Shown: piece after piece, positions 1-13,576 of the stretch | Position numbering within the stretch: position 1 is the first letter of the stretch | Layout: each line of letters starts with the position of its first letter | Origin: Ktedonobacteraceae bacterium | GTDB taxonomy: Bacteria > Chloroflexota > Ktedonobacteria > Ktedonobacterales > Ktedonobacteraceae | Direction of reading: 5' to 3' | DNA length: 13,576 bases | Assembly (NCBI GenBank): GCA_014896635.1 | Contig: JADBKA010000118.1 | Coordinates: 1-13,576 of the forward strand | Translations under genes and position numbers: made by a program | Notes under the pieces: model-generated | What the model saw: the letters and a program-made list of their open reading frames with translations, nothing else | Told to the model about the DNA's origin: nothing | Databases searched by the model: none

Positions 1-7
1 TCGTTCT

Positions 8-13
8 CCTCCT
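8..13 (-). promoter_or_regulatory. Ribosome-binding site of the next ATP synthase gene (expected atpA)
   Basis: On the minus strand this reads AGGAGG, followed by seven bases to the window edge. A start codon is therefore expected just outside the window. In F-type ATP synthase operons the gene after atpH is normally atpA, so this is probably its Shine-Dalgarno. The start codon itself is not visible. Confidence 0.6.
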
Positions 14-234: not shown

Positions 235-882
235 CTAGACCTGTGCCTGGGACGGGGAAGCCGGGCGGGGAGTAGCCTCAGCGGCAGAACTGACGGCTCT
301 GAGCAGATCTTCAGTGAGAAAATCACTCCCTGTACTGGCACTGGCCACCCCTTGCAGTAATTGCTGTTGCAGGGCTACCAGGCGATACCGAACGCTGCCG
401 TCGATGACCTGATCGCCCACGCGCGCTACTACACCTCCCAGAATGTTCGGATCAATGCGTGTGCGCAGAATGATTTTTTTGCCTGTTCTGCGCTCCAGAG
501 CCTGCTTCACAAGGGCGAGCTGTGCCTCGTCCAGTTGCGCTGCCGTTGTTACTTCCGCTATCGCCTCATTCCTGTAATCAAGGATGAACTGTTCAAGCTC
601 TCTGGCAATATTGGGCATCAGATCGACCAGCTCGCGCTGGACGACGAGCAGTGCAAGGTTGAGCGACGTAGGCAGCACTCTGGACGCCAGCGCCTGGCGG
701 ATCGCCGTCTCTTTGCGTTTCGCCGGAATCTTTGGCTCGCGTAATAGAAAAGCTATTTTGCGTTGGGCGAAGACGCGCGCGATTTCTTTCACATCGTCAA
801 GCGTACGATCAATGGTATTCTGCTTACGGGCCAGGCCAAAAACGGCTTCGGCGTAACGTCGTGCTATCGCTCCCTTCAGCAT
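235..882 (-). CDS. atpH: F-type ATP synthase delta subunit (OSCP)
   Basis: This is the peripheral-stalk subunit that ties the catalytic alpha3beta3 head to the b-subunit stator on the cytoplasmic face. The 215-residue protein begins with the family pattern ARRYAEAVFGLA (7-18). Near residues 143-167 it has the C-terminal signature DPNILGGVVARVGD, continuing into a VIDGSVRYRL-type strand. Most family members are close to 180 residues; here an Ala/Ser/Pro-rich tail of about 35 residues follows, of unknown role. The ATG start overlaps the atpF stop by one base (TGATG), so translation is probably coupled to atpF. The identity is confident from both sequence and position. Confidence 0.95.
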   Translation of the reverse strand: MLKGAIARRYAEAVFGLARKQNTIDRTLDDVKEIARVFAQRKIAFLLREPKIPAKRKETAIRQALASRVLPTSLNLALLVVQRELVDLMPNIARELEQFILDYRNEAIAEVTTAAQLDEAQLALVKQALERRTGKKIILRTRIDPNILGGVVARVGDQVIDGSVRYRLVALQQQLLQGVASASTGSDFLTEDLLRAVSSAAEATPRPASPSQAQV

Positions 883-1430
883 CAGTTGTTCCTCGCCTGG
901 TTATTCTGGTTACCAGAATTACTAGCTGTGACGAACTCTTCCACCAGGCGGCGGTTATCCCGTGTATTCATTGATTTACCAATGACTCTCTCTGCTGCTT
1001 CAATGGAGAGGTTCACCACCAGGCGGCTCAACTCGTTGCGGGCGCGATTGGCTTCCTGCTGGATGCGAGCGACCTGTTGCTGGTAGATCTGTTCAGTGCG
1101 CGCCCTGGCCTCCTCTTCTATATTCTGTGCTACGCGCTGGGCGTCTCTGGTCGCACGCTCAATAGTGGCCTGGGCATCGCGGCGCGCCTGGGCGAGAATC
1201 TCTTCGGCGCGCGCGCTCGCCTCTTCGAGGTCTCGCTTCGCCTTTTCCGCGTTCTCTATGCCTTCGCGGATGATCGCCTGCCGCTTATCCAGCATTTTTG
1301 TGAAGATGGGAAACACCCATTTCCAGAGAATAAGCAGGACGATGAGGAAGCTGATCAACTGTGCGATAAAGGCGCCCGCATTGATCCCAAGACCTCCTCC
1401 TTCCTGCGCGATGACAAGTGCTAATTGCAT
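882..1430 (-). CDS. atpF: F-type ATP synthase b subunit
   Basis: This is the membrane-anchored stator stalk that dimerises and connects subunit a to the delta subunit and F1 head. The 182-residue protein has one transmembrane segment at about residues 20-41 (rich in I, L, V, F). The conserved-type WKWVFPIF follows, then a long, highly charged Ala/Glu/Arg/Gln coiled coil to about residue 150. The C-terminus ends in an Asn/Gln-rich tail of about a dozen residues. On the minus strand an AAAGGGAG ribosome-binding site lies about seven bases before the ATG. The gene follows atpE after 117 bases and overlaps atpH by one base. Length and layout are normal for the family. Confidence 0.95.
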   Translation of the reverse strand: MQLALVIAQEGGGLGINAGAFIAQLISFLIVLLILWKWVFPIFTKMLDKRQAIIREGIENAEKAKRDLEEASARAEEILAQARRDAQATIERATRDAQRVAQNIEEEARARTEQIYQQQVARIQQEANRARNELSRLVVNLSIEAAERVIGKSMNTRDNRRLVEEFVTASNSGNQNNQARNN

Positions 1431-1489
1431 GATACTACTCCCTTTCCTCAGGAGTGGTTAGTTTCTCAACATACGCTCTCATATAACAC

Positions 1490-1526
1490 GGAGACGCGGC
1501 ACGTTTTGTAGGCAGGCAGCGTCTCC
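1490..1526 (-). repeat. Hairpin in the atpE-atpF intergenic region
   Basis: GGAGACGC (1490-1497) pairs perfectly with GCGTCTCC (1519-1526) across a 21-base loop. In the operon RNA this stem lies 21 bases after the atpE stop. There is no U-run, so it does not look like a full terminator. A stem here could protect the atpE message from 3' decay or reduce readthrough, which would raise c-subunit output relative to downstream genes. That role is inference. Confidence 0.5.
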
Positions 1527-1547
1527 ATGCTCCTGACGGGAAGAGTC

Positions 1548-1802
<255 letters not shown>

Positions 1803-1894
1803 TCAATGTTCATCGTGATAAAGAATATGTATGCAATCGCAGAAAAATGCTCTCCGCGAGTAGCAAACTTCAGCAAAACAGCTGGAAAAACAGA

Positions 1895-2779
1895 CTAATG
1901 CACTGCTGCCGCCTCATGTGCTTCTCTTTCCGCCTTGTGCTCCTCGTACTCGTGTTCGGCCTGTTCGTGACTGGTCGTGCCGACTTCCATGAAGAGCAGG
2001 GTAAGGAAGGCGAAGACGAACGCCTGGATGGCTGCAACGAACATCTCAAACGGAATGAAGATCACATTTGCGACCGCCGGCAGCAGAAAGGCGAACACTG
2101 CCAGCAAGACGCTGCCGGCGAAGATGTTGCCAAAGAGACGGAAGGAGAACGAGATCAGGCGTCCCAGTTCGCTGACGATCTCCAGTAACCCGACGAAGAA
2201 ATCGACGATACCCATCGGGCCTTTAGTGAAGAGCGCACGGAAGTTGAAGTAGACACTCAGATGCTCCAGCGTTCCACGCATGATGAAGCCAAAGACCTGG
2301 GTTGCGACGACCGAGACGATGGCCATCGCCAGATTCAGGTTCAGATCGGTGGTTGCCGGTCGGAACCAGGGGATGATCTCGTTAGAATATTCGCCGAACA
2401 ACAGGAAGCCCCAGACGGCATGTTGCTGAGCCTCGGCAGTCTTGATGGTACCGATGGTATCGACACCGGGCAGCACATCCAGCAAATTCGCGGCGAGAAT
2501 GAAAATCAGGAACGTGGCAACAAAAGGAAAAAACTTACGGCCTTTTTCCTTGCCGGAGACACTCTCTACCAGCCCGAGGATGAATTCGATGACCCACTCT
2601 AGAAAGTTCTGTAGGCCAGAGGGGATCATCTTCATGTTGCGCGTACCAAAAAAGAATAGCACAACCAGAAAGATAATGGCTATCCACGCGCAGAGTAATG
2701 TATTGGTGATCGGAAACCCGAAGATCTTGCCGATTTCCTCCGGGGCGATCATAATTTCAGGAAGTTTCCACAGTTGCAC
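1895..2779 (-). CDS. atpB: F-type ATP synthase a subunit
   Basis: This is the membrane stator subunit that forms the two proton half-channels against the c ring. The 294-residue, strongly hydrophobic protein has several membrane segments. The essential arginine is Arg214, in SFSFRLFGNIFAGS (210-223). Earlier comes the family pattern PATTDLNLNLAMAI (141-154). The start is GTG, chosen because a GGGAGG site lies about eight bases upstream on the minus strand. After the last helix (ending near 266) the protein carries a hydrophilic tail of about 25 residues, rich in His and Glu (HEQAEHEYEEHKAE, 271-284). This is longer than the typical C-terminus and of unknown function; it might bind metal or sense pH. 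Confidence 0.95.
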   Translation of the reverse strand: MQLWKLPEIMIAPEEIGKIFGFPITNTLLCAWIAIIFLVVLFFFGTRNMKMIPSGLQNFLEWVIEFILGLVESVSGKEKGRKFFPFVATFLIFILAANLLDVLPGVDTIGTIKTAEAQQHAVWGFLLFGEYSNEIIPWFRPATTDLNLNLAMAIVSVVATQVFGFIMRGTLEHLSVYFNFRALFTKGPMGIVDFFVGLLEIVSELGRLISFSFRLFGNIFAGSVLLAVFAFLLPAVANVIFIPFEMFVAAIQAFVFAFLTLLFMEVGTTSHEQAEHEYEEHKAEREAHEAAAVH

Positions 2780-2856
2780 TCGGCTTCCTCCCTATCGTGC
2801 CGAGCCGTGCCAGGTCTGTCTCTAAATAAATGGTCTCCCGTCTATGTTATTTGCCT

Positions 2857-3075
2857 TCAGCCAAATACACTTCTATATAAACGGTATGCTCCATATATTC
2901 CAGAAATCAGGCCAAGCAGCAGCCCGATGAGTAAAAACAATGAACCGGTATGCAAGAGGCCATCGAGGTAACGCCCTCCGATGGCAAACAGAACTATAGG
3001 AACCGCTATGGTGAAGCCCATTCCGCCCAGCGCCCCTAACGACGTCAGGATGGAAGGTAATGGCTTCTTCTTCAT
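2857..3075 (-). CDS. atpZ: AtpZ/AtpI-family two-helix membrane protein
   Basis: A small protein first in the ATP synthase operon. The AtpZ/AtpI family has been linked to ATP synthase assembly and Mg2+/Ca2+ handling. From the ATG at 3075 it is 72 residues, with two membrane segments: one around IAVPIVLFAIGGRYLD, where the family G-x-x-LD pattern sits, and one around SLFLLIGLLLGLISG. The Gly-rich turns and the LD after helix 1 are the family marks. The start is uncertain: in-frame ATGs also exist at 3111 and 3147, and no candidate has a strong, well-spaced Shine-Dalgarno. Residues upstream of MKKKPLPS look non-conserved, so I use the short form. No separate atpI gene is seen. Confidence 0.8.
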   Translation of the reverse strand: MKKKPLPSILTSLGALGGMGFTIAVPIVLFAIGGRYLDGLLHTGSLFLLIGLLLGLISGIYGAYRLYRSVFG

Positions 3076-3340
3076 AAAAACACCAGACACGCGCTTACTT
3101 CCACTACCCATCTCCGGGACCACTGGAAGCGCCGCCGCTCCTTTCATTCCTGCTATCTGCCTCTCACACCGGGAAGAAGCTGCCGTTGGGAACGCTGAAC
3201 CCCGCCGCTGACACGGCATTACTCGTGTCCAGCCAATCCATAAGCATGATACAGGTTGATACGCCTGGGATGCATCTGAACACGTTTTTTGGAGATAGGG
3301 TACTCGACCCGACAAATCCCGCTTCTCTCTTTTTTCTACC
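3076..3340 (-). other. Long 5' leader of the ATP synthase operon
   Basis: About 260 bases lie between the inferred transcription start (near 3340) and the preferred AtpZ start. The frame stays open upstream, so part could encode a longer N-terminus from ATG 3111 or 3147. The Cys/Arg/Ser-rich translation further up does not look like protein. I see no named riboswitch. The length leaves room for 5'UTR regulation. Confidence 0.4.
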
Positions 3341-3346
3341 AGTAGA

Positions 3347-3376
3347 ATTATAGCACACGCGGCGGAACCCGTGCAA
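3347..3376 (-). promoter_or_regulatory. Promoter of the ATP synthase operon
   Basis: On the minus strand TGCTATAAT forms an extended -10 (TATAAT at 3347-3352). TTGCAC (3371-3376) lies 18 bases further upstream as a weak -35. It is the best promoter-like sequence ahead of the operon. A second extended -10 with the identical TGCTATAAT is found at 13489-13497. Confidence 0.6.
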
Positions 3377-3383
3377 CTATTTT

Positions 3384-3418
3384 ATTGCTGCCAGCCTATT
3401 TATATTGCTGGCAGCAAT
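3384..3418. repeat. 12-bp perfect inverted repeat between tldE and the atp promoter
   Basis: ATTGCTGCCAGC (3384-3395) pairs with GCTGGCAGCAAT (3407-3418) around an 11-base A/T-rich loop. It begins eight bases upstream of the -35 of the ATP synthase promoter and lies downstream of the tldE stop. It could end the tldDE transcript, although the tail reads AATAAAATAG rather than a U-run. Alternatively it could be an operator for the atp promoter. Confidence 0.5.
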
Positions 3419-3429
3419 GGAGCTTTCAG

Positions 3430-3467
3430 GGGATACCCTCATGCGCGTGAACTTGGGAGGGTATCCC
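3430..3467. repeat. 11-bp perfect inverted repeat after tldE
   Basis: GGGATACCCTC (3430-3440) pairs with GAGGGTATCCC (3457-3467) around a 16-base loop. The left arm is itself nearly palindromic (GGGATACCC). It may belong to the same G/C-rich element family as the blocks at 95 and 3507, or serve as a transcription stop for tldDE. Confidence 0.5.
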
Positions 3468-3506
3468 TTCTCTCCTCAAGGGGAAAAAAGGGAAAAGAGG
3501 TTTCTC

Positions 3507-3545
3507 GGGGGACACCCCTGGCCCCCCCTGGACTCCTGTACACAT
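3507..3545. repeat. G/C-rich interspersed repeat-like element, copy 2
   Basis: It opens with GGGGGACACC (3507-3516), followed by a C-run and CTGG, closely resembling the block starting at 95. It ends at the last base of the tldE stop codon. The shared opening motif and the position after a gene suggest an interspersed repeat family. Copy number elsewhere in the genome cannot be judged from this window. Confidence 0.4.
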
Positions 3546-4882
3546 CAGCCGGTGAGGCCGGTGAAGTTGAAGCGCGAGCAGCGTATGGCCGGGGCAACAA
3601 CAGTGAGATAGTCGGTGCAGTGGATGCGCTCGCGGCTGATGGCCTCAACGCCGCGCAGTACGTCGAGAATACTCTGAGTGAAGCGCAGATTCTTGACGGG
3701 GCGACTCAGTTCGCCCCGTTCAATCAAGAAAGTTCCGTCGCGTGTCATGCCGGTGAAGAGTGTTTTGACAGGATGAACAGCATTGGTATAGTGAAAGCGG
3801 GTGACATACAATCCTTTATCGACATGCCTGATCAACTCTTCTCTGCTGGCATCGCCGGCGACCATCATGGTATGCAGGGGCAGCGGACCGGCGGGATTGG
3901 GGGCCGGCAGGGCATGACCGGTGTTGGACTTGCCTTCCCGCGCGGCAGTAAACGAGTCATAGACGACAGCGTTGGCAATCCCATGATCAATCATCACTAC
4001 TCGCTGTTTGGGGACGCCTTCATAGTCAAAGGACTGTGGCAGGCCAGACGGATCATGTCCATCGTCATAAATGGTGACAAGCGGGCTGACAATCTGTTTG
4101 CCAAACTGACCGTTCATAAAACTGCGCTCTTCCTGTACCGCCGTCGCGGAGAGGCCCATGAAGGCCAGGTTTTGCAGCATATCGGCCACAGCATAGCAAT
4201 CCAACACAACGCGGTACTCGCCAAGAGGAATATCCGCCGGTTTGCGACTGCGCTGCGCCTTATCGACGGCTTCACGCGCCATCTCTTCAAAGTCGAGCGT
4301 TGTGGCATCGGTCGCCACACGCTGTGTGTAGCCTGAACCGCTATCGTCGGCCATAATAACGGCATGACACTCGGCGTCGGTGCGCGGCTCATAAGCAAAA
4401 ACGCCGAGCGAGTTGGCGACCGCTGTATAGCTGATGTTGGTCGAGAATGCCCCGGCAGCTTCCAGGCGACGCTCCTTCGCCATCTGGACAATAATGCCGA
4501 CGCGGCGCGCACGCTCTTCGGGCGTAAAAGCGGCTGTATGCTCGCTATAGCCGGCTGCGGGAACAATGGGCTGCGGCTCCGGCAGAGAGTGAAATTCGGG
4601 ATTCTCAGGCTGGATGCGCGCGATTTCCAGAGCCTGCTCGGCGACACGGCGCAAGGATTCGTCGTCGAGGCGATTCGTTGAAGCCACGCCGGTTCGTTTG
4701 CCAATGACGGCGCGCACATGCACTTCTTGATTGCTTTCTGCCACATTCTGATGAATATGATTATTGGCGAAGCGCGTCAGAGCGCCCTCGGTACCGAGCA
4801 GGAGCACTTCGGTCTGCTCGGCCTGCGAGTAGTGCAGGATTTTCTCCAGCAGTTCGCGGATACTTCTTTCGTCAGGATACAT
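3545..4882 (-). CDS. tldE: TldE/PmbA-family subunit of the TldD/TldE metalloprotease
   Basis: This is the non-catalytic partner of TldD. In characterised systems the TldD/E heterodimer degrades unfolded peptides and removes leader peptides from some ribosomally made natural products such as microcin B17. The 445-residue protein matches the PmbA/TldE layout. It lacks the HExxxH zinc motif of TldD. It carries the C-terminal-half patterns GVPKQRVVMIDHGIANA and SNTGHALPAPNP, and the late TLFTGMTRDGTFLIERGE. The ATG lies 23 bases after the tldD stop, with a GGAGAGGAAGG purine-rich site upstream, so the two genes form one operon. No obvious peptide precursor gene is nearby, so a general cytosolic role is more likely. 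Confidence 0.9.
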   Translation of the reverse strand: MYPDERSIRELLEKILHYSQAEQTEVLLLGTEGALTRFANNHIHQNVAESNQEVHVRAVIGKRTGVASTNRLDDESLRRVAEQALEIARIQPENPEFHSLPEPQPIVPAAGYSEHTAAFTPEERARRVGIIVQMAKERRLEAAGAFSTNISYTAVANSLGVFAYEPRTDAECHAVIMADDSGSGYTQRVATDATTLDFEEMAREAVDKAQRSRKPADIPLGEYRVVLDCYAVADMLQNLAFMGLSATAVQEERSFMNGQFGKQIVSPLVTIYDDGHDPSGLPQSFDYEGVPKQRVVMIDHGIANAVVYDSFTAAREGKSNTGHALPAPNPAGPLPLHTMMVAGDASREELIRHVDKGLYVTRFHYTNAVHPVKTLFTGMTRDGTFLIERGELSRPVKNLRFTQSILDVLRGVEAISRERIHCTDYLTVVAPAIRCSRFNFTGLTG

Positions 4883-4905
4883 TATTCGATTTCTGCCTTC
4901 CTCTC

Positions 4906-6363
4906 CTAAGACCAGCGACCGACGCCGACCTGGACATTGCGAAAGCGGGCAGGGGCCGCGCCATGCCCGGTGCGCATGACTTGCATTGGCTCACCTTTGC
5001 CACAGTTGGGAGTTCCCCAGACCGTCCACTCCTGCGGCCCACAGACGGCATCGCAGGAGTTCCAGAACTGCGGCGTGATGCCGGTGTACGTTGCATTCTT
5101 GTAGAGGCGTCCGAGTTTGCCGTTTTTGATCTCGTAGGCCAGTTCGACGCCAAACTGGAAATTGAGGCGGCGGTCATCAATACTCCAGCTTTTGTTAATG
5201 CTCATATAGATGCCGTCGTCGGTGTCGGCGATCAGATCGTCGAGCGTCCACGTCCCTGGTTCGAGACTGACGTTGGTCATGCGGATCATGGGCAGGCGGT
5301 TCCAGCTATCGGCGCGCACGCAGCCGTTGCTGGTCAGACCAAGCAGTGAAGCTGTATCGCGCGACATGAGGTAGCCGGTAAAAATGCCATTGGTGACGAT
5401 GGGAGTACGCTGGGCTGGCACGCCTTCGTCATCCCAGCCGAATGTGCCGAGTCCGCCGGCGATAGTAGCATCGGCGGTGATGTTGACGACATCCGAGCCG
5501 TAGCGGTACCGGCTGTCCAGCTTATCCAGGGTGAGGAAGCTTTTGCCGACGAAGCCAGCTTCCATGCCGAGCACACGATCCAGTTCGATAGGATGCCCAC
5601 AGGATTCGTGAATCTGAAGGGCCGTCTGGGGACCATCCAGGATGACTGTTGTCACACCGGCGGGACATTGATCTGCCGAGAGCAGCCTCACAGCCTCTTC
5701 GCCGATGCGCGCACCATGTTGCGGCAGGTTCATCGCTTCGATGAACTCATAGCCGGCTGTACCGGCCTGCCGGCCAAACGAGTTAGGATAAGAACGGGTC
5801 TGGATCTCGCTGCTGTCTGGATCGACAGCGCTGGCGGAAATAGCGGCCCCGGTATCGAAGAGTTCTTGCTCGATCTCGCTGCCTTCAGAACTGGCGAAGA
5901 ACTTGCACTCACGGGCATATTCCATGAAGCTGTTCGTGATGGCGACGCCCTTTACACTGCGCATGGCCGCATCGGCATCAAGCAACAGTTGCACTTTCTG
6001 AGCCAGTGGCACAGAGAAAGGGTCGATTTTGATGGGTGTGCGGTAGCTGCCACGCTGAGGAGCAAGCGGAGAGAGGTGTACCGGTGATCCGGCAACAAGA
6101 GCGCTGGCACGGGCAATCTCCACTGCCTGGTGCGCAATGCGGGCCACTTCGGCCTCTCCCATGCGCGCGCTGCTGGCGAATCCCCACGCACCATTGACAA
6201 TCACGCGAACGTTAAAGCCACTGCTGGTACCGCTGGCTACGCCCTCGACGCGCCCGCTTTTCACTTCGATGCTCTCAGTTGTGCGTTCCATGACGCGCAC
6301 ATCGGCGTAGCTGGCTCCCAGTTGCTGAGCGATGTTCAGTGCTCTGAGTGCTACATCTCGCAT
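4906..6363 (-). CDS. tldD: TldD-family zinc metalloprotease
   Basis: This is the catalytic subunit of the TldD/TldE peptidase. The 485-residue protein holds the zinc motif HESCGH, with His252, Glu253 and His257, within QIHESCGHPIELD. The conserved late segment has Cys454 in CGKGEPMQVMRTGHGAAP, matching the family's third zinc ligand region. The N-terminal half shows the family pattern ESIEVKSGRVEGVASG (30-45). Length is normal. It is first in a two-gene operon with tldE. An extended -10 (TGATACAAT) lies about 28 bases before the ATG. Confidence 0.93.
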   Translation of the reverse strand: MRDVALRALNIAQQLGASYADVRVMERTTESIEVKSGRVEGVASGTSSGFNVRVIVNGAWGFASSARMGEAEVARIAHQAVEIARASALVAGSPVHLSPLAPQRGSYRTPIKIDPFSVPLAQKVQLLLDADAAMRSVKGVAITNSFMEYARECKFFASSEGSEIEQELFDTGAAISASAVDPDSSEIQTRSYPNSFGRQAGTAGYEFIEAMNLPQHGARIGEEAVRLLSADQCPAGVTTVILDGPQTALQIHESCGHPIELDRVLGMEAGFVGKSFLTLDKLDSRYRYGSDVVNITADATIAGGLGTFGWDDEGVPAQRTPIVTNGIFTGYLMSRDTASLLGLTSNGCVRADSWNRLPMIRMTNVSLEPGTWTLDDLIADTDDGIYMSINKSWSIDDRRLNFQFGVELAYEIKNGKLGRLYKNATYTGITPQFWNSCDAVCGPQEWTVWGTPNCGKGEPMQVMRTGHGAAPARFRNVQVGVGRWS

Positions 6364-6390
6364 AGTATACTCTTTCTGTTTTTGTGATTT

Positions 6391-6399
6391 ATTGTATCA
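6391..6399 (-). promoter_or_regulatory. Extended -10 promoter element of tldDE
   Basis: The minus strand reads TGATACAAT, an extended -10 (TGn plus TACAAT) about 28 bases upstream of the tldD start. There is no good -35 at 17 bases. The 14-base sequence repeated at 13525 begins at its upstream edge, in the place where a regulator or upstream element would sit. Confidence 0.5.
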
Positions 6400-6412
6400 T
6401 AAATTCGACATT
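6399..6412. repeat. 14-base direct repeat, copy 1
   Basis: ATAAATTCGACATT occurs here and again at 13525-13538 in the same orientation, in both cases between genes. It could be a shared promoter or operator element, since it abuts the tldD -10 here. It could also be a flanking repeat of the accessory region. A repeat this short can also arise by chance in a window of this size. Confidence 0.35.
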
Positions 6413-6450
6413 CAAGGGTTCGGAGAGCAATTGATATGTCACCCGGCAAT

Positions 6451-6574
6451 GCCACTTTTCTGGCTCTGAGCAACGCTCGTTACCAGAACAGAGTGGTTTG
6501 TGCCTCTAGTGGAACACGTGGAAGTAGAGGCTCTGCCACGTGCAGGTGCCTGGCCTCGCACCTGCCTCTTTTTT
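6451..6574 (+). ncRNA. Candidate structured RNA: leader with attenuator, or a small RNA
   Basis: A plus-strand stretch with several stems. The first is a nested hairpin: CCACT (6452-6456) with AGTGG (6492-6496), TTCTGG (6458-6463) with CCAGAA (6483-6488), and GAGC (6468-6471) with GCTC (6475-6478) around an AAC loop. Next, GCCTCTA (6502-6508) can pair with TAGAGGC (6525-6531). Alternatively CACGTGG (6515-6521) can pair with CCACGTG (6536-6542). These two stems exclude each other, and the second touches the foot of the terminator stem (6542-6565). This is the geometry of a regulatory leader upstream of the TGT-like/Rmt operon, or of a short independent RNA. It matches no riboswitch class I recognise. 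Both function and boundaries are inference. Confidence 0.45.
6542..6574 (+). terminator. Intrinsic terminator upstream of the TGT-like gene
   Basis: GCAGGTGC (6542-6549) pairs perfectly with GCACCTGC (6558-6565) around an eight-base loop. It is followed by CTC and a run of six T (6569-6574). The T-run is on the plus strand only, so it stops plus-strand transcription. No plus-strand protein gene ends here. It therefore terminates a small RNA or works as an attenuator for the operon starting about 245 bases later. Confidence 0.75.
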
Positions 6575-6819
6575 CTCCCTTTAAGAACAGAAAAACTATG
6601 AGCCGGATGTACTTTCTCTCTATTTTACGTGCTATGGGAAGGGCGGTCTCACCGGTTTAAGAACTTTGTTTCCTGGCTCTTGAGGAAGAATAGTGGTAAA
6701 GTTTGAAGAGTGAGAAGATCCAGAAGAAGAGGGCGCGCCGGGTCCTTACAACGTGGGGTTCAGGTGTCCTCCGAAATATTTTTTTCATTGAGAGAGGAAG
6801 GTGAAGAGGATTGAGTGAG
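6575..6819 (+). other. Intergenic region between the terminator and the TGT-like gene
   Basis: About 245 bases with no convincing gene. A weak promoter candidate is TTGTTT (6666-6671) with AATAGT (6689-6694) at 17-base spacing. TTTAAGAAC occurs twice (6580 and 6656). The purine-rich GAAGAGG (6803-6809) lies ten bases before the ATG at 6820 and serves as its likely ribosome-binding site. Confidence 0.4.
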
Positions 6820-7923
6820 ATGAATCGGTACAAAGATTTGTCGCTGCCGCATGGGACGCTGGCGCTGCCGGCGTTTCTACCGGATGCCACGCTGGGAGTG
6901 GTACGCGCGGTAGATGCAAAGGATCTGGAACAATGCCAGGTGCAGGCGCTGGTGATGAACACGTTCCACCTGATGCAGCGCCCTGGCACATCAACCATCC
7001 AGGCACTGGGTGGACTGCACAGTATGAGCGCCTGGCAGCGGCCCATCGTGACCGATTCAGGCGGCTTTCAGGCGTATTCACTAATCCAGCAGAGCGCAAA
7101 GTTCGGCTCTCTGGATGACGATGGCATTACCTTCAAGCCTGAAAGCGCCGAGCGCAAATTTCACCTGACACCCGAAAAAGCTGTACAGCTACAGTTTGCC
7201 TATGATAGCGATGTGATCATGTGCCTGGATTACTGCACCCACGTGGATGCACCATATGCTGTGCAGGAATCGTCAGTACAGCATACAATAGCCTGGGCAG
7301 TACGCTGTAAGAGAGAATACGAGCGGCTGCTGGAACAGAAACATCTGCCGGCAGAGAAACGTCCCCTGCTGTTCGCGGTGGTTCAGGGTGGCGGCATACC
7401 AGAACTGCGCCGCCGCTGTGCGGAAGCACTGCTGGAGATCGGCTTTGATGGCTTTGGCTACGGCGGCTGGCCGCTGGATAGCAAAGGGAATCTGCTGACT
7501 GAGATCATTGCATATACGCGCGAGCTGATCCCGGCTCACCTGCCGATGCACGCACTTGGCATCGGCCATCCCGACAATGTGGCAGAATGCGCACGTCTGG
7601 GCTACGGCCTCTTCGATAGCGCGATGCCCACCCGCGATGCACGCCATGCGCGGCTGTATGTTTTTACAGAGGATGCGGCATCACCGGAGAGAGCAAACCA
7701 CTGGTTCACCTATCTCTATGTGAATGACGATAAATACATCAAGAAGAATGGGCCTGTATCGAGCGTCTGTGATTGCCTCTGCTGCCAGAACTATTCGATT
7801 GGCTATCTGCATCACCTCTTCAAAATCAATGATAGCCTTTTTCTACGCCTGGCGACAATTCATAATCTCCGCTTTATGACAATGCTGATGCAGCGATTGA
7901 GAGCGCACCATGCCAGAATTTGA
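6820..7923 (+). CDS. Divergent tRNA-guanine transglycosylase (TGT) family protein
   Basis: TGT enzymes exchange guanine in RNA for a 7-deazaguanine base. From the ATG at 6820 the protein has 367 residues. It keeps the acid/base aspartate (Asp79 in VTDSGGFQ), the pocket Asp137 (MCLDYCT), VVQGGG (187-192), the nucleophile Asp266 (LFDSAMPTR), and the zinc ligands Cys317, Cys319, Cys322 and His348. The base-recognition loop, normally near GGLAVGE or GGLSVGE, is GGWPLD here, so substrate choice may differ from preQ1. A TTG start at 6811 is an alternative, but the ATG has better ribosome-site spacing. It overlaps the downstream rRNA methyltransferase by 14 bases, so the two are very likely co-translated. 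It could still be an ordinary Tgt; no other queuosine genes are in view. Confidence 0.85.
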   Translation: MNRYKDLSLPHGTLALPAFLPDATLGVVRAVDAKDLEQCQVQALVMNTFHLMQRPGTSTIQALGGLHSMSAWQRPIVTDSGGFQAYSLIQQSAKFGSLDDDGITFKPESAERKFHLTPEKAVQLQFAYDSDVIMCLDYCTHVDAPYAVQESSVQHTIAWAVRCKREYERLLEQKHLPAEKRPLLFAVVQGGGIPELRRRCAEALLEIGFDGFGYGGWPLDSKGNLLTEIIAYTRELIPAHLPMHALGIGHPDNVAECARLGYGLFDSAMPTRDARHARLYVFTEDAASPERANHWFTYLYVNDDKYIKKNGPVSSVCDCLCCQNYSIGYLHHLFKINDSLFLRLATIHNLRFMTMLMQRLRAHHARI

Positions 7924-8722
7924 TGAAGTGGCGCTAAATCAGCTCATTGCGGATGTGTTAAGCAGCGCGAAGTACCGCGACGTCAGTCCTGCATTTGTAC
8001 GACACATCGGCATGCAAGAACTGGGCAGGCGGCGCAACTTGAAAGAGGCGGTGAAGGAGACGAAGAACAGGCTACACCAGGTGAGCGGCGCCTATCTGGG
8101 CCGAGAGCACTATGCCCGCTGGCTGGCAGAAATCAGACAGGCGGTGCGCTCCGGCGATGAGCACGAACTACGAGCGGCATGCCGACTCGTGATGAGTCAT
8201 CACGCCTCGACGCAGGAACGACTGCCTCTGCTCGATACGTTCTACCGCAGCGTGCTGGCCGACTATGCTCCCATTCATAGCGTGCTTGATGTGGCCTGTG
8301 GACTGCACCCGCTGGCAATCCCCTGGATGCCACTGGCACAGGATGCGCGTTATTATGCCTATGATATCCACCAGGACATGCTGAACTTTTTGCAAGAGTG
8401 TATGCATATCATGGGTGTACAGGGAGAGGTGCAATGCTGCGATGTGACGCAGACATGCCCGCAGCAGGAAGCAGAAGTCGCACTGGTGTTGAAGACGCTG
8501 CCCTGCCTTGAGCAGGTGGATAAGCTGGCGGGAGAGCGTCTTTTGCGCGAACTACGGGCGCGGCGACTGGTTGTCTCGTTTCCGGTGCGCAGTCTGGGCG
8601 GTAGAAAGAAAGGGATGGCGGAACATTATGAAAAGCACTTTTACGAGATGCTCGGAGAAGAGGTCGGGACGGTGAAGAAGTTTCTGTTCGAGACGGAACT
8701 GGTATTTGTGGTAGAACGATGA
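7910..8722 (+). CDS. 16S rRNA (guanine-1405-N7)-methyltransferase, Rmt/FmrO family
   Basis: Enzymes of this family use S-adenosylmethionine to methylate N7 of G1405 in 16S rRNA and block binding of 4,6-disubstituted aminoglycosides. The 270-residue protein matches the family throughout. It has a helical N-terminus with SSAKYRDVSP (18-27), HHASTQERL (97-105), the SAM-binding strand-loop VLDVACGLHPLAIP (125-138), DIHQ (152-155), LVLKTLPCLEQ (192-202), and the signature VSFPVRSLGGRKKGM (222-236) followed by HYEKHF. The family lacks close look-alikes, and NpmA/KamB enzymes (A1408) have different motifs. Its ATG lies inside the 3' end of the TGT-like gene. No aminoglycoside biosynthesis genes are visible, so self-protection by a producer is not supported here. 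Confidence 0.9.
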   Translation: MPEFDEVALNQLIADVLSSAKYRDVSPAFVRHIGMQELGRRRNLKEAVKETKNRLHQVSGAYLGREHYARWLAEIRQAVRSGDEHELRAACRLVMSHHASTQERLPLLDTFYRSVLADYAPIHSVLDVACGLHPLAIPWMPLAQDARYYAYDIHQDMLNFLQECMHIMGVQGEVQCCDVTQTCPQQEAEVALVLKTLPCLEQVDKLAGERLLRELRARRLVVSFPVRSLGGRKKGMAEHYEKHFYEMLGEEVGTVKKFLFETELVFVVER

Positions 8723-8736
8723 GTCGGCGAAAATCT

Positions 8737-9069
8737 CTATCGCTGACGCCTGTTTTTGCGTTCTTCGTTCAACTTCATTCCCCGGTAGACGGTATCAACG
8801 GAAAACTGAAGATCGAGACTCTCCAATTTTACTGTATCTCCCGCCCTGAACGTATGCAATTTCCAGCCATCTTCTTCACGGCGATACACTTCGATCAGGA
8901 TGCTCTGAGAGTCAACCATGACATATTCCTGTACTGAGGGGCATTCGCGGTAATAGAGAAATTTTCTCCCCCTGTCGGTGGCTTCGGTACTTGGAGAGAG
9001 CACTTCCATGATCACGCGCGGGTAGCGAATCATGTCATCGAGCGCCTGGTCGCTATAAACGCGGTGAGT
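8737..9069 (-). pseudogene. Truncated Uma2-family (PD-(D/E)XK) nuclease remnant
   Basis: The translation carries the C-terminal half of the Uma2 (DUF820) family: YPRVIMEVLSPSTEATDRG, then KFLYYRE, then VQEYVMVDSQS. The Glu of MEVLSPST and the following Lys are family active-site residues. Family-like sequence continues upstream of the ATG at 9033 for 12 more codons (VYSDQALDD), then meets an in-frame TAA at 9070-9072. The N-terminal 70-90 residues, including the expected PD motif, are absent. It is therefore a broken copy, unlikely to be an active nuclease. The remnant ends 15 bases after the Rmt gene, tail to tail. Confidence 0.75.
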
Positions 9070-9082
9070 TTACAGGATTGAT

Positions 9083-9104
9083 CATACCACTCTTTGATGG
9101 TATG
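9083..9104 (-). terminator. Hairpin after the FAD oxidoreductase gene
   Basis: CATACCA (9083-9089) pairs with TGGTATG (9098-9104) around an eight-base loop, 12 bases beyond the oxidoreductase stop. It has only a weak U-tail in the gene's direction, so it is at best a modest terminator. On the plus strand it is followed by the pyrimidine-rich TTCTCTTCTT, so it could equally stop transcription coming from the Rmt side. Confidence 0.4.
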
Positions 9105-9116
9105 TTCTCTTCTTAA

Positions 9117-10412
9117 TCAAATTGAAAGAAGAGAGAGTAGAGAGTGATGATCCGTACCGCTGATCGTTTCTCTATCCAGCCTGAACGGTAGCAGTCTCGC
9201 AGGCGTTCGGTCGCTCTGTACGGCCTCGGCCAGCATCTGACTGATCAGCATGCTGAACGGCATGCCGTGTCCAGAGAGACCACCGACAAACCAGGCATTG
9301 GCAAGACCCGGCACGCGGTCAACGATGGGAATGCGATCAGGCGTAAAAGCCATCAAACCCGCCCAGCGCTGCACGACCTGTAGTCCGCCGAGCTGCGGGA
9401 AGAGGCGCGGAAAAATCTGCTCCAGAGCTGCCTGCACCTCTGCCGTCGGTACAGGTTCCCGCACGCCTACATCACGTCCGGGCGCGTGTGCTCTGCATCC
9501 TCCCAGGACAATCGAGCCGTCTGGCGTCTGCTGCCAGTATTCGCCAGTCTCAGTGAGCGAGGCGAAGACCGCCGTCGTAAATACCGGCTTCAGCGGCGCA
9601 TAGGCCAGCGCCTGTCCGCGTACTGGCACGATCTTGCCCTTGATCCCGGTGATCAGCTCGTCTGTCCATGCATTGACGGCAAGCACAACAGAGCCGGTGC
9701 TGATCCTGCCTACATTCGTTTCTACCAGCACACTATTGCTGTCCTGGACGAGGCGCAGCGCCTGCGCGCGGTACACCTGCGCACCGCGTCTCTGAGCCGC
9801 CTGAACCAGGCCCTGGACCAGCTTTGCCGAATGCACCAGTGCCTGCCCCGGCAGAAATTTCCCCCCTGTAATCTCTGGAGCGAGAGGTGTACGAATCAGC
9901 TCCTGCACCTCGTCTCGCGCTAACAACTGCGCGGAAAAACCATCCGCCTGTAACGCTTCGACATCGCTGCGCAGGTGAGAGAACTGCTCTTCGCCCGGCG
10001 CCAGGCCCAGACTGCCCGGCTCGCGGTATTGACAATCGATCTCCTCTTCGGCCAGCACGCCACGCAGCAGCGCCTGATTCTCATAAGATATCGCCATCAC
10101 GGCCTGCGCCGTCTTCTGTCCCAGACGTCTGATAGCCGCCGGATAGTCCTCGGCCATGCCCGCCACGACAAAGCCGCCATTGCGTCCACTCGCGCCATGC
10201 GCCACCGCCACGCGATCCAGCAGGACCACACGCCTGCCTGAGCGCGCCAGCCAGTAGGCAACCGCTGCGCCAAAGACTCCGCAACCCACGACGAGCGCGT
10301 CAACCGTGCGCGGCAACTCGCCGGAGATGGGAAACGGGACAGCCGTGCGCTGCCAGTAGGAAGCAGGCTCGTTCGCTGAGTGAGATGGTTCGATCTCGTG
10401 ATTGGCAGACAT
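9117..10412 (-). CDS. FAD-dependent oxidoreductase (DAO family), possibly OrdL/PuuB-like amine oxidase
   Basis: This family oxidises an amine or amino acid with FAD and releases H2O2. The 431-residue protein has the dinucleotide fold VVGCGVFGAAVAYWLA (41-56, GxGxxG), with Asp66 ending the second strand (VVLLDR). Next comes the flavin-contact motif GASGRNGG (73-80). Near the C-terminus are DRIPIVDRVPGLANAWFVGG and GLSGHGMP. An N-terminal SYWQ and overall layout resemble gamma-glutamylputrescine oxidase-type proteins, but substrate cannot be fixed from sequence. The ATG at 10412 has AAAGGA about 12 bases upstream. It looks like a single-gene unit and neighbours do not indicate a pathway. Confidence 0.85.
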   Translation of the reverse strand: MSANHEIEPSHSANEPASYWQRTAVPFPISGELPRTVDALVVGCGVFGAAVAYWLARSGRRVVLLDRVAVAHGASGRNGGFVVAGMAEDYPAAIRRLGQKTAQAVMAISYENQALLRGVLAEEEIDCQYREPGSLGLAPGEEQFSHLRSDVEALQADGFSAQLLARDEVQELIRTPLAPEITGGKFLPGQALVHSAKLVQGLVQAAQRRGAQVYRAQALRLVQDSNSVLVETNVGRISTGSVVLAVNAWTDELITGIKGKIVPVRGQALAYAPLKPVFTTAVFASLTETGEYWQQTPDGSIVLGGCRAHAPGRDVGVREPVPTAEVQAALEQIFPRLFPQLGGLQVVQRWAGLMAFTPDRIPIVDRVPGLANAWFVGGLSGHGMPFSMLISQMLAEAVQSDRTPARLLPFRLDRETISGTDHHSLLSLLSI

Positions 10413-10455
10413 GGTACGGCAGAGTCCTTTCTCATTCCGACGTTAATTTCAACAT

Positions 10456-10474
10456 AGGCAAGAGCTTCTTGCCT
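10456..10474 (-). terminator. Hairpin between the methyltransferase and oxidoreductase genes
   Basis: AGGCAAGA (10456-10463) pairs with TCTTGCCT (10467-10474) around a three-base loop. It lies 11 bases after the methyltransferase stop in its direction of transcription. The following ATGTTGAAATT has few T, so termination may be partial. Confidence 0.45.
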
Positions 10475-10485
10475 GGGATTGCATG

Positions 10486-11415
10486 CTAAAACTGGTCAGG
10501 CAGAACCAGTCCTGTGCGCGTCTGATGGCTGGCAACAGGTGGTCTCCAGAAATCTAGCAGATACTCGAAGGTCGTCCCCATCGTGATATAGTTACTCGGC
10601 CAGCCAAAAATGCCGACATTATTCACAATGTTGGTGCGATCCCAGATAATCGTATTGCGCAGTTCATAGCCGACGGAGCGTAGAGCTTCGATCACTGCGA
10701 CATGAATCGTGATGCGCTTATTCTCCCACCACATATCAGGAACATTGACGACGCAGTGTCCTTTTTTTCTCAGCAATGGCAGCAAGCCGGCGAAGATCGC
10801 GGCCATCGCCTCTGCGTAATCGTCCAGTTCGAGCGTTCCCAGATCCTCTGCGCGCTGGCTGTACTGCTCCACTTTTTTGTACTGCCCATTTTTGCGCGCG
10901 TCCCCGCGCCGGCTCTTGTTGAGGCGCGCTCTATTGAGTAGATTGGCATAAGGCGGCGAGGTCACGATGCAGGTGATGCTCTCTTCCTCAAGATAGCTGG
11001 CAATGTTTCTGGCATCGTCGAATACAGGAATCTGCTGTGTCTCCTCAAAGGGATCGGCCTGCTGCAAGCGTTCGCGTGTGAGCGCAACATAATCGGGGTG
11101 AATGTCGAAGCCAACGGCATTCCTGCCACAATCGCGCGCTGCCACGAGCGTCGTGCCGCTACCCATGAAAGGATCGACGACCAGCTCTCCGCGATGTGAA
11201 AATAGCTCGATGCACCTGCGAGCCAGGGCGATGGGATAGGTGGCGGGATGTTTCTGCTTATCGCGGATATCGCGTCCCTCATAGGCAAACTGCCAGACGC
11301 CGAGCTGGCACCTGATCCAGGTCTTCGCATCGAGGCAGTTGATATGGGAAGCCTCACATGTGCAGGTGCGCTTCGTCCCAATGGTGAGTTTTTGTGACCG
11401 TTCCTCTGTTGCCAT
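10486..11415 (-). CDS. DNA methyltransferase with TSPPY motif (N4-cytosine/N6-adenine type)
   Basis: This is a SAM-dependent exocyclic-amino DNA methyltransferase. In the 309-residue protein, motif X (KHPATYP, 55-61) and motif I (DPFMGSGTT, 81-89, SAM binding) come before catalytic motif IV (TSPPY, 152-156). The C-terminal segment with WDRTNIVNN and TTFEYLLDFWRP probably contributes to target recognition. TSPPY favours N4-cytosine methylation, but this is not certain. The N-terminus is rich in cysteines (18, 20, 27 and 36), which could bind a metal. The ATG at 11415 has AAGGA a few bases upstream and a TATAAT 18 bases before it. Together with the nuclease remnant and second methyltransferase it forms a restriction-modification locus. 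Confidence 0.85.
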   Translation of the reverse strand: MATEERSQKLTIGTKRTCTCEASHINCLDAKTWIRCQLGVWQFAYEGRDIRDKQKHPATYPIALARRCIELFSHRGELVVDPFMGSGTTLVAARDCGRNAVGFDIHPDYVALTRERLQQADPFEETQQIPVFDDARNIASYLEEESITCIVTSPPYANLLNRARLNKSRRGDARKNGQYKKVEQYSQRAEDLGTLELDDYAEAMAAIFAGLLPLLRKKGHCVVNVPDMWWENKRITIHVAVIEALRSVGYELRNTIIWDRTNIVNNVGIFGWPSNYITMGTTFEYLLDFWRPPVASHQTRTGLVLPDQF

Positions 11416-11432
11416 TTTCCTTATCCACCCCT

Positions 11433-11438
11433 ATTATA
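11433..11438 (-). promoter_or_regulatory. Promoter -10 of the first DNA methyltransferase
   Basis: The minus strand reads TATAAT, 17 bases before the ATG at 11415. The leader would be only about ten bases long, still containing an AAGGA ribosome site. No good -35 is seen. Confidence 0.45.
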
Positions 11439-11516
11439 GAGCATCGTCAGGAGAAGGATAGCGGTTACAGCAGAGGTTGTCAACTCGTATCGCGGCTTTC
11501 CTGCACCCTCGTAGAG

Positions 11517-11522
11517 TATAAT
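11517..11522 (+). promoter_or_regulatory. Promoter -10 of the endonuclease remnant
   Basis: A perfect TATAAT on the plus strand, 69 bases before the GTG start of the nuclease remnant. No convincing -35 lies 17 bases upstream. Together with the -10 at 11433 it makes this a divergent promoter region between methyltransferase and nuclease, typical of restriction-modification loci. Confidence 0.4.
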
Positions 11523-11591
11523 AAAGCCAGTAATTGCCCGTGCTTTAGATGAGGGCTTTATGAGCAGGCAGAAAAAAAGGAAGCGACCCCG

Positions 11592-12032
11592 GTGGAGAAA
11601 ATAGTAGCTAATCCTGGCAGTACATTGGGCGAGGCTATCGGCACGCTCATTGAACTGGAAGTAAATCGTCTGCTGCGTCCTCTTGCAGAGGAGAATGGCT
11701 GCGTTTATGTGACCGCTGGTCCGGCAAACGTACGAACCGGCAAACCAACAAAACCGCTATTGAAAGACTCATCAGGCAATGAATATCAGATTGACGCCGT
11801 GATTGCTAACGTACGGATGCAACCTCTTGTCCTGATAGAGTCGAAGTATATCCGTTATCAGAAGCACAACAGGGATAAAGGAAGCTGGGTATGCACCGCT
11901 CATTATAGTTTGGGGAAAGTTAGCCCTTCTCCAGGAGAAGAATACTCTCTTTCAGGGCGACTTTATGCCGCTGCGGATTATCTCTCCATTTCCCGCCCCG
12001 CGTTCGTAAATCTTCTATACTATAGCGCGTAA
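11592..12032 (+). pseudogene. Restriction endonuclease remnant (PD-(D/E)XK), 3' half lost
   Basis: The open frame has 146 codons, but only about the first 106 look like a nuclease. An N-terminal helical part (STLGEAIGTLIELEVNRLL) leads to a PD-(D/E)XK-type core: Asp68 in YQIDAVI, then Glu83 and Lys85 in VLIESKYIRY, followed by KHNRDKGSWVCTAH. From about position 11908 the frame is merely the antisense of the 3' end of the second methyltransferase, whose stop is at 11920. The gene has therefore been cut and joined to that 3' end, and the usual C-terminal half is missing. GTG was chosen as start because AAGGAAG lies eight bases upstream. The specific enzyme and recognition site are unknown. Confidence 0.65.
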
Positions 12033-13290
12033 AACCAACAGCTTTTCCAATCTCGCCGAGATAGATGTCGGTCGGAATATGCACCCCATACGGAGCCGAG
12101 TCACCTAGAATCAGGAGAAAGACTCCACCTGGCTTGAGTACCCTGTACGTTTCTTGCAAGACCTGTAGCATGTCCTGAAAATAGCCGGCTACCATGATAT
12201 CGTAGCTCTTCTTCCCACCCTTCTGGAGACGACGCTGTGTTAATTCTTCGACCTTTGGCCTGAGTTCAACCGCCACATCCGGCACTCTTCGGCAAAAATC
12301 ATCCTTGACCAGTGCTCCCTCTTGATAACCAGAGCGCACAATCTGGGTGGTTGCAGACATGATCAGCTGTGAGCGAACTTTCTGTGTAATATCATGCCAG
12401 CTGCTGGCCTCGCCCCAGAAATACATTTCTAGCCTGGTTCTATCTGAGTAGTCATAATTATTCAAATAAGGGGGAGAGGTGAAAACGAGATCAACGGCGC
12501 CGTTCTCTATAGCATCCTGCCGGCGCCGGGAATCCCCTAAAATAAACGTAGCTTGCACTCTTCTTTGCACTGTACGCTGTACTTCCCGTAAATCACCATA
12601 CATCTGATAGAGCTGGTCTCGCAATTTTTCAATCACTTTCATACTACTTCCATTACCATTCTTTTTCGCCTTTTGAGGAGCGATATACGGCCAACCAGTA
12701 GCTACATCGGCTATTGAGCGCAGGAGATTGGTCAAACCGAGCTTTGCAAAGTTACGGAAAGGGCCAGCCGGTAATGCCTTGATGACCTCACGGCATACAT
12801 ACAGGCAAGCTAGTTTTTCACGACTATAACATTTATACACCAGTGCGGGAAAAATATCCTGGATAGGAAGCGTTGCCATATCCCGCTGTTGGATTGCGTT
12901 TTTGATACGCTCAAGCAGCTCATCAATTTGATGTAAAAGACCGGGGGAAGCAAAATCCCAGAAAAGTTTGGTTGCACCAACGAAATGCACAAAAGGATGT
13001 GCCTCTACGCCAAACGAGCGAATTCCGTGCTGTTGAGCGACAATATTTGTTGTGGCAGTCCCCGCAAAAGGATCATAGACGGTCATTCCTGGCCGAATAT
13101 TGTACACGCGAAATGCTTTTTCAACAGCTTTAAAAGAAAATCCGGCGGGATAAGTAAACCACCGATGAACAGGCGCGCGCAATGAGTCCTGAAACGTGCC
13201 GAGATTTTCACGATTCAGATCATGTTTCCTTGCAGATGCTGTGTTTTCCTCTTGAAAAATATTGAGCTGAGTTATATTCACTACATACAT
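11920..13290 (-). CDS. DNA methyltransferase with TSPPYLNN motif (probable N4-cytosine type)
   Basis: A second SAM-dependent DNA methyltransferase, of a different subfamily from the one at 10486. From the ATG at 13290 it has 456 residues. Motif I DPFAGTATT is at 73-81. A long helical insert follows, then catalytic TSPPYLNNYDYSDRTRLE (271-288), LKPGG (385-389) and LGDSAPYGVHIPTD (395-408). The C-terminus (KVALKESILLLEKG) looks complete. The start is uncertain: GTG at 13314 and GTG at 13281 are alternatives, and GGAG lies at the best spacing for GTG 13281. It is probably the modification partner of the nuclease remnant. With that nuclease broken it may persist as an orphan methylase. Confidence 0.82.
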   Translation of the reverse strand: MYVVNITQLNIFQEENTASARKHDLNRENLGTFQDSLRAPVHRWFTYPAGFSFKAVEKAFRVYNIRPGMTVYDPFAGTATTNIVAQQHGIRSFGVEAHPFVHFVGATKLFWDFASPGLLHQIDELLERIKNAIQQRDMATLPIQDIFPALVYKCYSREKLACLYVCREVIKALPAGPFRNFAKLGLTNLLRSIADVATGWPYIAPQKAKKNGNGSSMKVIEKLRDQLYQMYGDLREVQRTVQRRVQATFILGDSRRRQDAIENGAVDLVFTSPPYLNNYDYSDRTRLEMYFWGEASSWHDITQKVRSQLIMSATTQIVRSGYQEGALVKDDFCRRVPDVAVELRPKVEELTQRRLQKGGKKSYDIMVAGYFQDMLQVLQETYRVLKPGGVFLLILGDSAPYGVHIPTDIYLGEIGKAVGFTRYSIEDLRTRGGKWRDNPQRHKVALKESILLLEKG

Positions 13291-13440
13291 CTCCAGATTA
13301 GAAATACACTTCACGGTCAGTCAACAAAGCTATGATCCTACAGATATTCCTTTTCAAAAAACGGAAGAGAGTAGCGGATTCTCGTCAAATAACTTCTGAC
13401 ATTGTAAATCACATGCAGCGAAACCACAAGCGCATAGCCT

Positions 13441-13470
13441 GAAAATAGCAGAACCATGACTGCTATTTTC
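13441..13470. repeat. 11-bp perfect inverted repeat, possible operator
   Basis: GAAAATAGCAG (13441-13451) pairs with CTGCTATTTTC (13460-13470) around an eight-base spacer. It sits 18 bases upstream of the extended -10 at 13489, so a regulator bound here could control the outgoing promoter. It is not followed by a clear T-run on either strand. Confidence 0.5.
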
Positions 13471-13488
13471 TCCCTCCCTTCCCATTCA

Positions 13489-13497
13489 TGCTATAAT
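13489..13497 (+). promoter_or_regulatory. Extended -10 promoter reading out of the window
   Basis: TGCTATAAT is a perfect extended -10 on the plus strand, identical to that of the ATP synthase operon. No clear -35 is present. The gene it serves lies beyond the right edge. Confidence 0.45.
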
Positions 13498-13524
13498 AGA
13501 CAGGATTGGTAAACTGGCTATCCT

Positions 13525-13538
13525 ATAAATTCGACATT
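13525..13538. repeat. 14-base direct repeat, copy 2
   Basis: ATAAATTCGACATT, identical and in the same orientation to 6399-6412. Read on the minus strand both copies are followed closely by GATA (at +1 and +3), which fits a shared regulatory motif as well as a flanking repeat. Confidence 0.35.
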
Positions 13539-13576
13539 ATGCTAAACGTATTGAACACAAAGCGAAAAACAGATAT

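Follow-up and report, generated by a model that had tools for sequence, protein, structure and literature searches.

A putative 16S rRNA G1405 methyltransferase and a second kind of tRNA-guanine transglycosylase encoded by a recurrent, often overlapping gene pair in Chloroflexota

The subject here is a stretch of 13,576 nucleotides, called the window, from a Ktedonobacteraceae bacterium (Chloroflexota; GenBank assembly GCA_014896635.1, contig JADBKA010000118.1, positions 1 to 13,576), whose + strand carries two genes that run into one another: one for a paralogue of the tRNA-guanine transglycosylase (TGT) family, designated TGT2 (6811..7923; 370 amino acids from a TTG, or 367, the form P0121, from an in-frame ATG at 6820), and one for Rmt, an Rmt/FmrO-family 16S ribosomal RNA (rRNA) (guanine-1405 N7) methyltransferase of 270 amino acids with an ATG start (7910..8722). 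As judged from its sequence, TGT2 is a TGT paralogue whose catalytic residues have been kept and whose base pocket has been rebuilt. From its recurrence in relatives and on some plasmids, the pair probably forms one unit, and confidence is high that a dedicated TGT paralogue works with Rmt. What best explains the whole would be a module for modification of the ribosomal decoding centre with rRNA as the target of TGT2, an explanation that is put forward tentatively, its chances being reckoned a little below even.

A TGT-like gene and an Rmt/FmrO-type gene on one strand with a 14-base overlap had been described in an earlier, sequence-only reading, and this is borne out by the open reading frames (ORFs), both unbroken, and by PF01702 and PF07091; the overlap (7910..7923, +) extends from the Rmt start, ATG at 7910-7912, to the TGT2 stop, TGA at 7921-7923. 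For relatives, genome contigs were scanned with a 10-row Rmt alignment, and the best 80 of 341, leaning to the window's kin, serve as the related loci. The pairing is conserved beyond what chance would give: TGT2 is immediately 5' of Rmt on the same strand in 59 of the 80 and 1.25-1.8 kb upstream in 3 further loci, and in 46 of the 59 adjacent pairs the Rmt start, projected in relatives from the alignment, precedes the TGT2 stop to give an overlap of 1-32 bases. No TGT is present in the available flank of 18 of the 80, and the genomes behind these have, by score class, TGT2 elsewhere (7), fragments (2), none (8) or an ambiguous case (1), locus L021 being assigned to genome G044 through an identical Rmt.

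Co-occurrence in whole genomes is also pertinent, with the counts being raw and kinship ignored. Rmt is present in 30 of 151 sampled Chloroflexota genomes, and 29 of the 30 have TGT2, the one without it being G110, in which Rmt is cut by the contig end; TGT2 adjoins Rmt on the same strand in 25, is 1.3 kb off in one (G035) and on another contig in three (G044, G097, G146). By score class, none of the 100 genomes checked among the 121 lacking Rmt has TGT2. TGT2 was called present or absent from the class and range of its PF01702 scores. A check for the GGWP motif, dealt with below, found it in the Rmt-bearing G044, G056, G134 and G146, and it is absent from odd second TGTs of the Rmt-less G012, G041, G059 and G092, with G050, G068, G091 and G124 among the genomes called by score and range alone. 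The order is reversed, Rmt-TGT2, in three of the 25 adjacent genomes (L116-L118), and since the pair is intact there the link appears to outlive rearrangement.

TGT2 matches PF01702 with an E-value of 1.4e-92 and narrowly passes the Tgt equivalog model TIGR00430 (315.5 bits, cut-off 306.75), falling below both the archaeal TgtA model TIGR00432 (94 of 350 bits) and the DNA transglycosylase DpdA model NF041059 (21.8 of 200 bits). That it might be the housekeeping Tgt is ruled out: each of the six named genomes has, besides the TGT linked to Rmt (299-324 bits), a separate canonical Tgt (500-531 bits). When 99 TGT rows, 94 of them different, are placed in a tree, TGT2 is a single clade of 88 rows (83 different, with five duplicates) against 11 canonical rows at a support of 100; this tree and the others in this work are of the 'quick' kind and contain flagged long branches. 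As modelled with AlphaFold2 (pLDDT 93.1, pTM 0.91), the window protein has the Tgt fold, with TM scores of 0.85-0.88 to Tgt structures among the top 50 listed. With the bacterial enzymes of Z. mobilis, T. maritima and E. coli, TGT2 has in common this fold, the catalytic Asp pair, the Gln and the zinc site, represented in the window protein by D82, D140, Q192, D269, C320, C322, C325 and H351. In E. coli numbering, D89, S90, D143, Q187, G214, D264, R270, R273, C302, C307 and H333 are kept in 88 of 88 rows, and C304 is lost in 4 Chloroflexota rows. The D269 codon is at 7615..7617 (+), and its residue aligns with E. coli D264, which we take to be the nucleophile.

Apart from having its own clade, TGT2 differs from canonical Tgt in a loop: canonical GGLAVGE becomes GGWPLD-, and, elsewhere, canonical PVGT becomes PDAT. 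Two of the loop replacements, L215 by W and A or S216 by P in E. coli numbering, occur in all 88 rows, and others are L243 by A (86), V32 by D (86) and K39 by R (87), with R276 being fixed. The codons for the changed loop of the window protein, G218-G219-W220-P221-L222-D223 (canonical GGLAVG), are at 7462..7479 (+). The role of the loop is set out in PMC3660597: the peptide of Leu231 and Ala232 turns its carbonyl toward preQ1 but presents its NH to bound guanine, and its partner is Glu235. These positions, 231, 232 and 235 in Z. mobilis numbering, are 215, 216 and 219 in E. coli. The residues of this guanine/preQ1 peptide switch are missing from the window TGT2. Leu is at the switch position in 10 of 11 canonical rows; Glu219 is retained in 2 of 47 rows of another TGT2 set and is Ser in the window. 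With a proline lacking the amide hydrogen, the guanine-bound state of the switch would not form in TGT2.

The partner is, by its sequence, a putative G1405-type methyltransferase that would give resistance to 4,6-disubstituted aminoglycosides. It matches PF07091 (E 1.7e-60; 205 bits, cut-off 27) and passes the generic NCBIfam model NF000466 (254.6 bits, cut-off 250), so sharing its Pfam and generic NCBIfam family with RmtB-RmtH and ArmA of clinical isolates, whereas the models for the named alleles RmtB-RmtH have cut-offs far above its score, the best being 149.9 bits (RmtF) against 500 (exception-level range 500-550). The nearest solved relative is Sgm (3lcu, E 1.3e-47), of the Sgm/FmrO group of actinomycete producers, with whose D156, D182, K199 and R236 (we assume this numbering and the functional roles of these residues) the window's D152, D178, K195 and R232 align. 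Across 101 rows of first-type Rmt, K195 is invariant, and D178 and R232 are kept in 89 and 84. In contrast to this group, no antibiotic pathway gene is among the ten window proteins scanned, and Sgm itself falls outside a 90-row, mostly Chloroflexota set (support 99) in an Rmt tree of 104 rows. The window Rmt belongs to that set, as a member of a smaller group of 11 rows that are mostly Ktedonobacteria (96). Of the three reversed-order Rmts, L117 and L118 are placed close to Sgm, at low support.

Genes around the pair give a hint of the process in which it may participate. Clustering of ORFs around the loci brought up RsmI, RsmF-like and RsmE proteins and a queuosine-precursor transporter, with TIGR00096, TIGR00046 and TIGR00697 matched above cut-off and the RsmF models below their equivalog cut-offs. 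By tblastn, the 80 loci have RsmI in 30, RsmF in 27, RsmE in 13 and the transporter (TIGR00697) in 11, and 43 loci, about half, have one or more of RsmI, RsmF and RsmE, which are methyltransferases of 16S helix 44; by ORFs the corresponding figures are 28, 28, 13, 9 and 42. RsmI is immediately upstream on the same strand in 19 loci: the gene that follows it is TGT2 in 18, and Rmt in the remaining one (L044, without TGT2). In two more (L047, L049) RsmI abuts or overlaps. According to part of one source (PMC12406665), RsmF, RsmI, RsmH and RsmE are the housekeeping enzymes beside G1405 and A1408. A control around RsmI in 16 genomes lacking Rmt, made with Anaerolineae-type queries at E 1e-8 in other lineages and on stretches of which two were under 10 kb, gave RsmF in none, RsmE in one and the transporter in none. 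Canonical Tgt loci (L087-L092, about 4 kb each, and L140, 7 kb) have none of RsmI, RsmF, the transporter or Rmt.

The longest run, in L024, is transporter-RsmI-TGT2-Rmt-Rmt2-RsmF-RsmE on one strand. Rmt2 is a divergent second Rmt present in 24 loci (for instance L014, L024, L047, L049, L062 and L070), often directly past Rmt; its S-adenosylmethionine motif is kept, Gly at 235 is absent in all 24, with loss of a Gly-Met pair, and His stands for Pro198 in 21. The seven Rmt2 proteins tried against NCBIfam score 164-181 bits (cut-off 250).

In the mechanism proposed, Rmt would methylate N7 of G1405 and so keep 4,6-disubstituted aminoglycosides out, and TGT2 would act on RNA of the decoding centre, most likely on helix 44 of 16S rRNA, and replace a guanine there by a preQ1-like 7-deazaguanine. 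The proline at 232 (Z. mobilis numbering) would remove the peptide NH that faces guanine and leave the pocket locked in its preQ1-type state, and the gene overlap would allow both enzymes to be co-translated in step from one message. Helix 44 is favored because of the rRNA-enzyme neighbors and because tRNA already has a Tgt of its own. Taken by itself, the statement that TGT2 is an rRNA transglycosylase, placing a 7-deazaguanine in helix 44, is possible yet doubtful; were it true, it would add a new class to the known modifications of the ribosome. The boldest form, that TGT2 acts on the very guanine that Rmt methylates, removing 7-methylguanine (m7G) and so exchanging or erasing the mark at G1405, is a long shot. 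With a proline-locked pocket, the base that leaves would not have to offer a lone pair at N7, and m7G would be a good leaving group; Rmt and TGT2 would then be two ways to fill position 7 of the aminoglycoside-site guanine.

The strongest competitor, nearly as likely and credible though also short of an even chance, is that TGT2 acts on tRNA, either with a different 7-deazaguanine or on another set of tRNAs than the housekeeping enzyme, and so tunes decoding in the face of m7G1405 or aminoglycosides. Its standing is due partly to two arginines, at the positions of E. coli R270 and R273, that are kept in every one of the 88 rows and presumably read the UGU loop of tRNA. It is due also to the tie between tgt and aminoglycoside tolerance in V. 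cholerae, which, in part of one study (PMC11703503), needs tgt, through queuosine at position 34 (Q34), for good growth and tolerance under tobramycin. The narrow pass of the Tgt equivalog model and the queuosine-precursor transporter in 11 of 80 loci point the same way. Set against these are the canonical Tgt already in the six named genomes, the recurrence of rRNA rather than tRNA enzymes as neighbors, and the lack of any match to canonical QueA in five Rmt-bearing genomes (G055, G089, G097, G103, G121).

Besides the conserved arginines, several results weigh against the decoding-centre module. No report of 7-deazaguanine in rRNA was found in open-licence literature (titles and abstract openings). 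The window and the near Ktedonobacteria loci L007-L010, L012, L015, L018, L027 and L055 have no Rsm neighbor in the available flank. In 43 of the 46 genomes with a match RsmI is present once, as a housekeeping gene, so that what lies near the pair is housekeeping genes and not extra copies; its presence there may mean no more than that the pair came to lie in a neighborhood of translation genes. The presence of the transporter does not follow that of Rmt, as it is in 15 of 33 Rmt-bearing and 4 of 20 Rmt-less genomes, and as a strict partner it is ruled out by these same figures. Among plasmids, the opened regions of rmtF2, rmtC, armA and rmtB1 have no tgt within 3 kb, and no tblastn match. The suggestion in the sequence-only reading that the two enzymes act together holds as genetic linkage, in adjacency and co-occurrence, and goes no further: at least eight genomes (G157, G164, G165, G167, G169, G170, G172, G174) have Rmt without this TGT, six of the eight Rmts forming one set (support 99), which looks like a single loss.

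Two other queuosine-pathway candidates were rejected. De novo preQ0 synthesis is not a requirement, strong QueC (over 170 bits) being in 14 of 27 Rmt-bearing genomes and missing from 13, and a QueA paralogue is not a partner, as it is not beside TGT2 in the compared genomes and is also in the Rmt-less G020. This paralogue, of about 150-218 bits, accompanies canonical QueA in G001, G053, G062, G071, G087, G142 and others.

A further alternative is that TGT2 is a mere duplicate with weak or redundant queuosine-tRNA activity, carried along because it lies in front of Rmt and supplies its translation start, and sharing no function with it. The eight genomes with Rmt alone, the several plasmid rmt regions without tgt, the 5'-truncated tgt next to a whole rmtE2, and P0291, the sole TGT2 homologue without the nucleophile in the 47-row set, would all suit a dispensable passenger. 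Nevertheless it is unlikely, since the fixation of the catalytic residues and of the W-P pair in 88 of 88 rows argues for selection on a distinct activity, and TGT2 is retained in the genome away from Rmt at 7 of the 18 non-adjacent loci (score class); the three genomes in which the order is reversed but the pair intact, and the lack of TGT2 in all 100 tested Rmt-less genomes, also count against it.

That an rmt gene can have tgt for a neighbor is already published for rmtG. Part of a review has rmtG in an operon with rsmH, tgt and 'rsmL' (PMC9311965), and part of a genome paper has a putative tRNA ribosyltransferase upstream of it (PMC3904158). Nothing on an Rmt-linked TGT subfamily or a Chloroflexota Rmt-TGT pair was found in the titles and abstract openings of open-licence literature. 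The sequence-only reading had put such a gene beside the methylase in rmtD-type regions, correctly for rmtD2 (18-base gap), and genes of the TGT2 kind are likewise present by rmtG (8-base overlap), by rmtE2 (11-base overlap, tgt 5'-truncated) and near rmtB2 (phosphoesterase gene between). Their products are 46-48% identical to the window TGT2 over full length and up to 54% over truncated copies, other Tgts being at most 34.5% identical among the matches listed (60 of 72 records). Clinical rmt genes have mostly been regarded as stand-alone resistance genes. If several of them descend from a two-enzyme module with a transglycosylase of its own, the level of resistance, its fitness cost or the order of modification may depend on the partner TGT, which may also be the reason that tgt accompanies some mobile rmt genes.

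The Klebsiella plasmid rsmH-tgt-rmtG region (NZ_CP021956.1) is a close parallel. Its TGT2-type tgt, 46% identical to the window's, has an 8-base overlap with the methyltransferase gene, and the two lie between RsmH on the upstream side and, downstream, an N-terminal fragment that is RsmI-like. It differs in being mobile, near IS91-type ISVsa3 and IS26 transposases, and in having an Rmt only 33% identical and a TGT that nests with Clostridia-type proteins, a label extended from few named matches (Clostridia, Christensenellales, Eubacteriales). On the TGT tree the rmtB2, rmtG and rmtD2 copies each pair with a different Clostridia-type protein (P0300, P0254 and P0241), from which at least three captures would follow, with the window not being their source. 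The Rmt tree agrees: the eight plasmid Rmts are a separate set from that of the window (support 88, long branches), and identity of the window Rmt to plasmid alleles is at most 36.8% among the matches listed. The idea in the sequence-only reading that the window points to where mobile rmt genes came from is therefore abandoned; despite gene pair, order and short overlap like those of rmtG plasmids, a chromosomal ancestor or donor of the mobile rmt-tgt pairs in the window was rejected on identities and both trees and is scarcely credible. As to where a donor may be sought, a branch of only 0.006 separates the TGT2 linked to rmtD2 (L003) from the metagenomic P0241, an almost identical protein that stands for 104 sequences. 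On plasmid pEc09 (L004, NZ_MH325468.1) a second tgt copy begins about 2 kb past rmtG, in the manner of a tandem repeat.

Some irregular loci merit mention. RsmI precedes Rmt in L044 and L122 with no TGT2 between, as though it had dropped out, and a two-gene insertion separates TGT2 from Rmt in L046 (3167-4983) and L048 (3181-4999), the first ORF of which has, by eye, a P-loop like GPNGAGKS- or GGNGAGKS. Both Dictyobacter genomes (L099, L100; G002, G004) encode yet another protein with a TGT domain, their third, which is only remotely related and lies in an ORF of about 700 amino acids. Neither the window Rmt nor the plasmid TGT2s had a relative in viral_contigs, as queried with one single protein and one 3-row set.

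In the window, the ten proteins scanned comprise the pair together with an ATP synthase a subunit, ATPase_gene1, TldD, an FAD oxidoreductase, two DNA methylases and a Uma2 fragment; a chromosomal location fits with the first three of these neighbors, and the closest taxon-named database proteins of both gene products are from Ktedonobacteria. These ten, part of the window's ORFs, include no transposase or integron flank, the contig ending 4.9 kb past Rmt. An 8-bp G+C-rich hairpin followed by a T run (6542-6565, +), 245 bases 5' of the TGT2 start, resembles an attenuator; as a conserved one it was rejected, only L040 among 25 other loci scanned having such a hairpin, and Rfam gave no known RNA element in the leader of the pair. 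The Uma2 fragment (8737-9033, -) is directly past Rmt and covers only profile positions 94-168 of 172. Further on, the region 10486-13314 has a + strand ORF (11592-12032), with no Pfam or PADLOC match, between two DNA methyltransferases of type II-like kind on the - strand, and is possibly a restriction locus.

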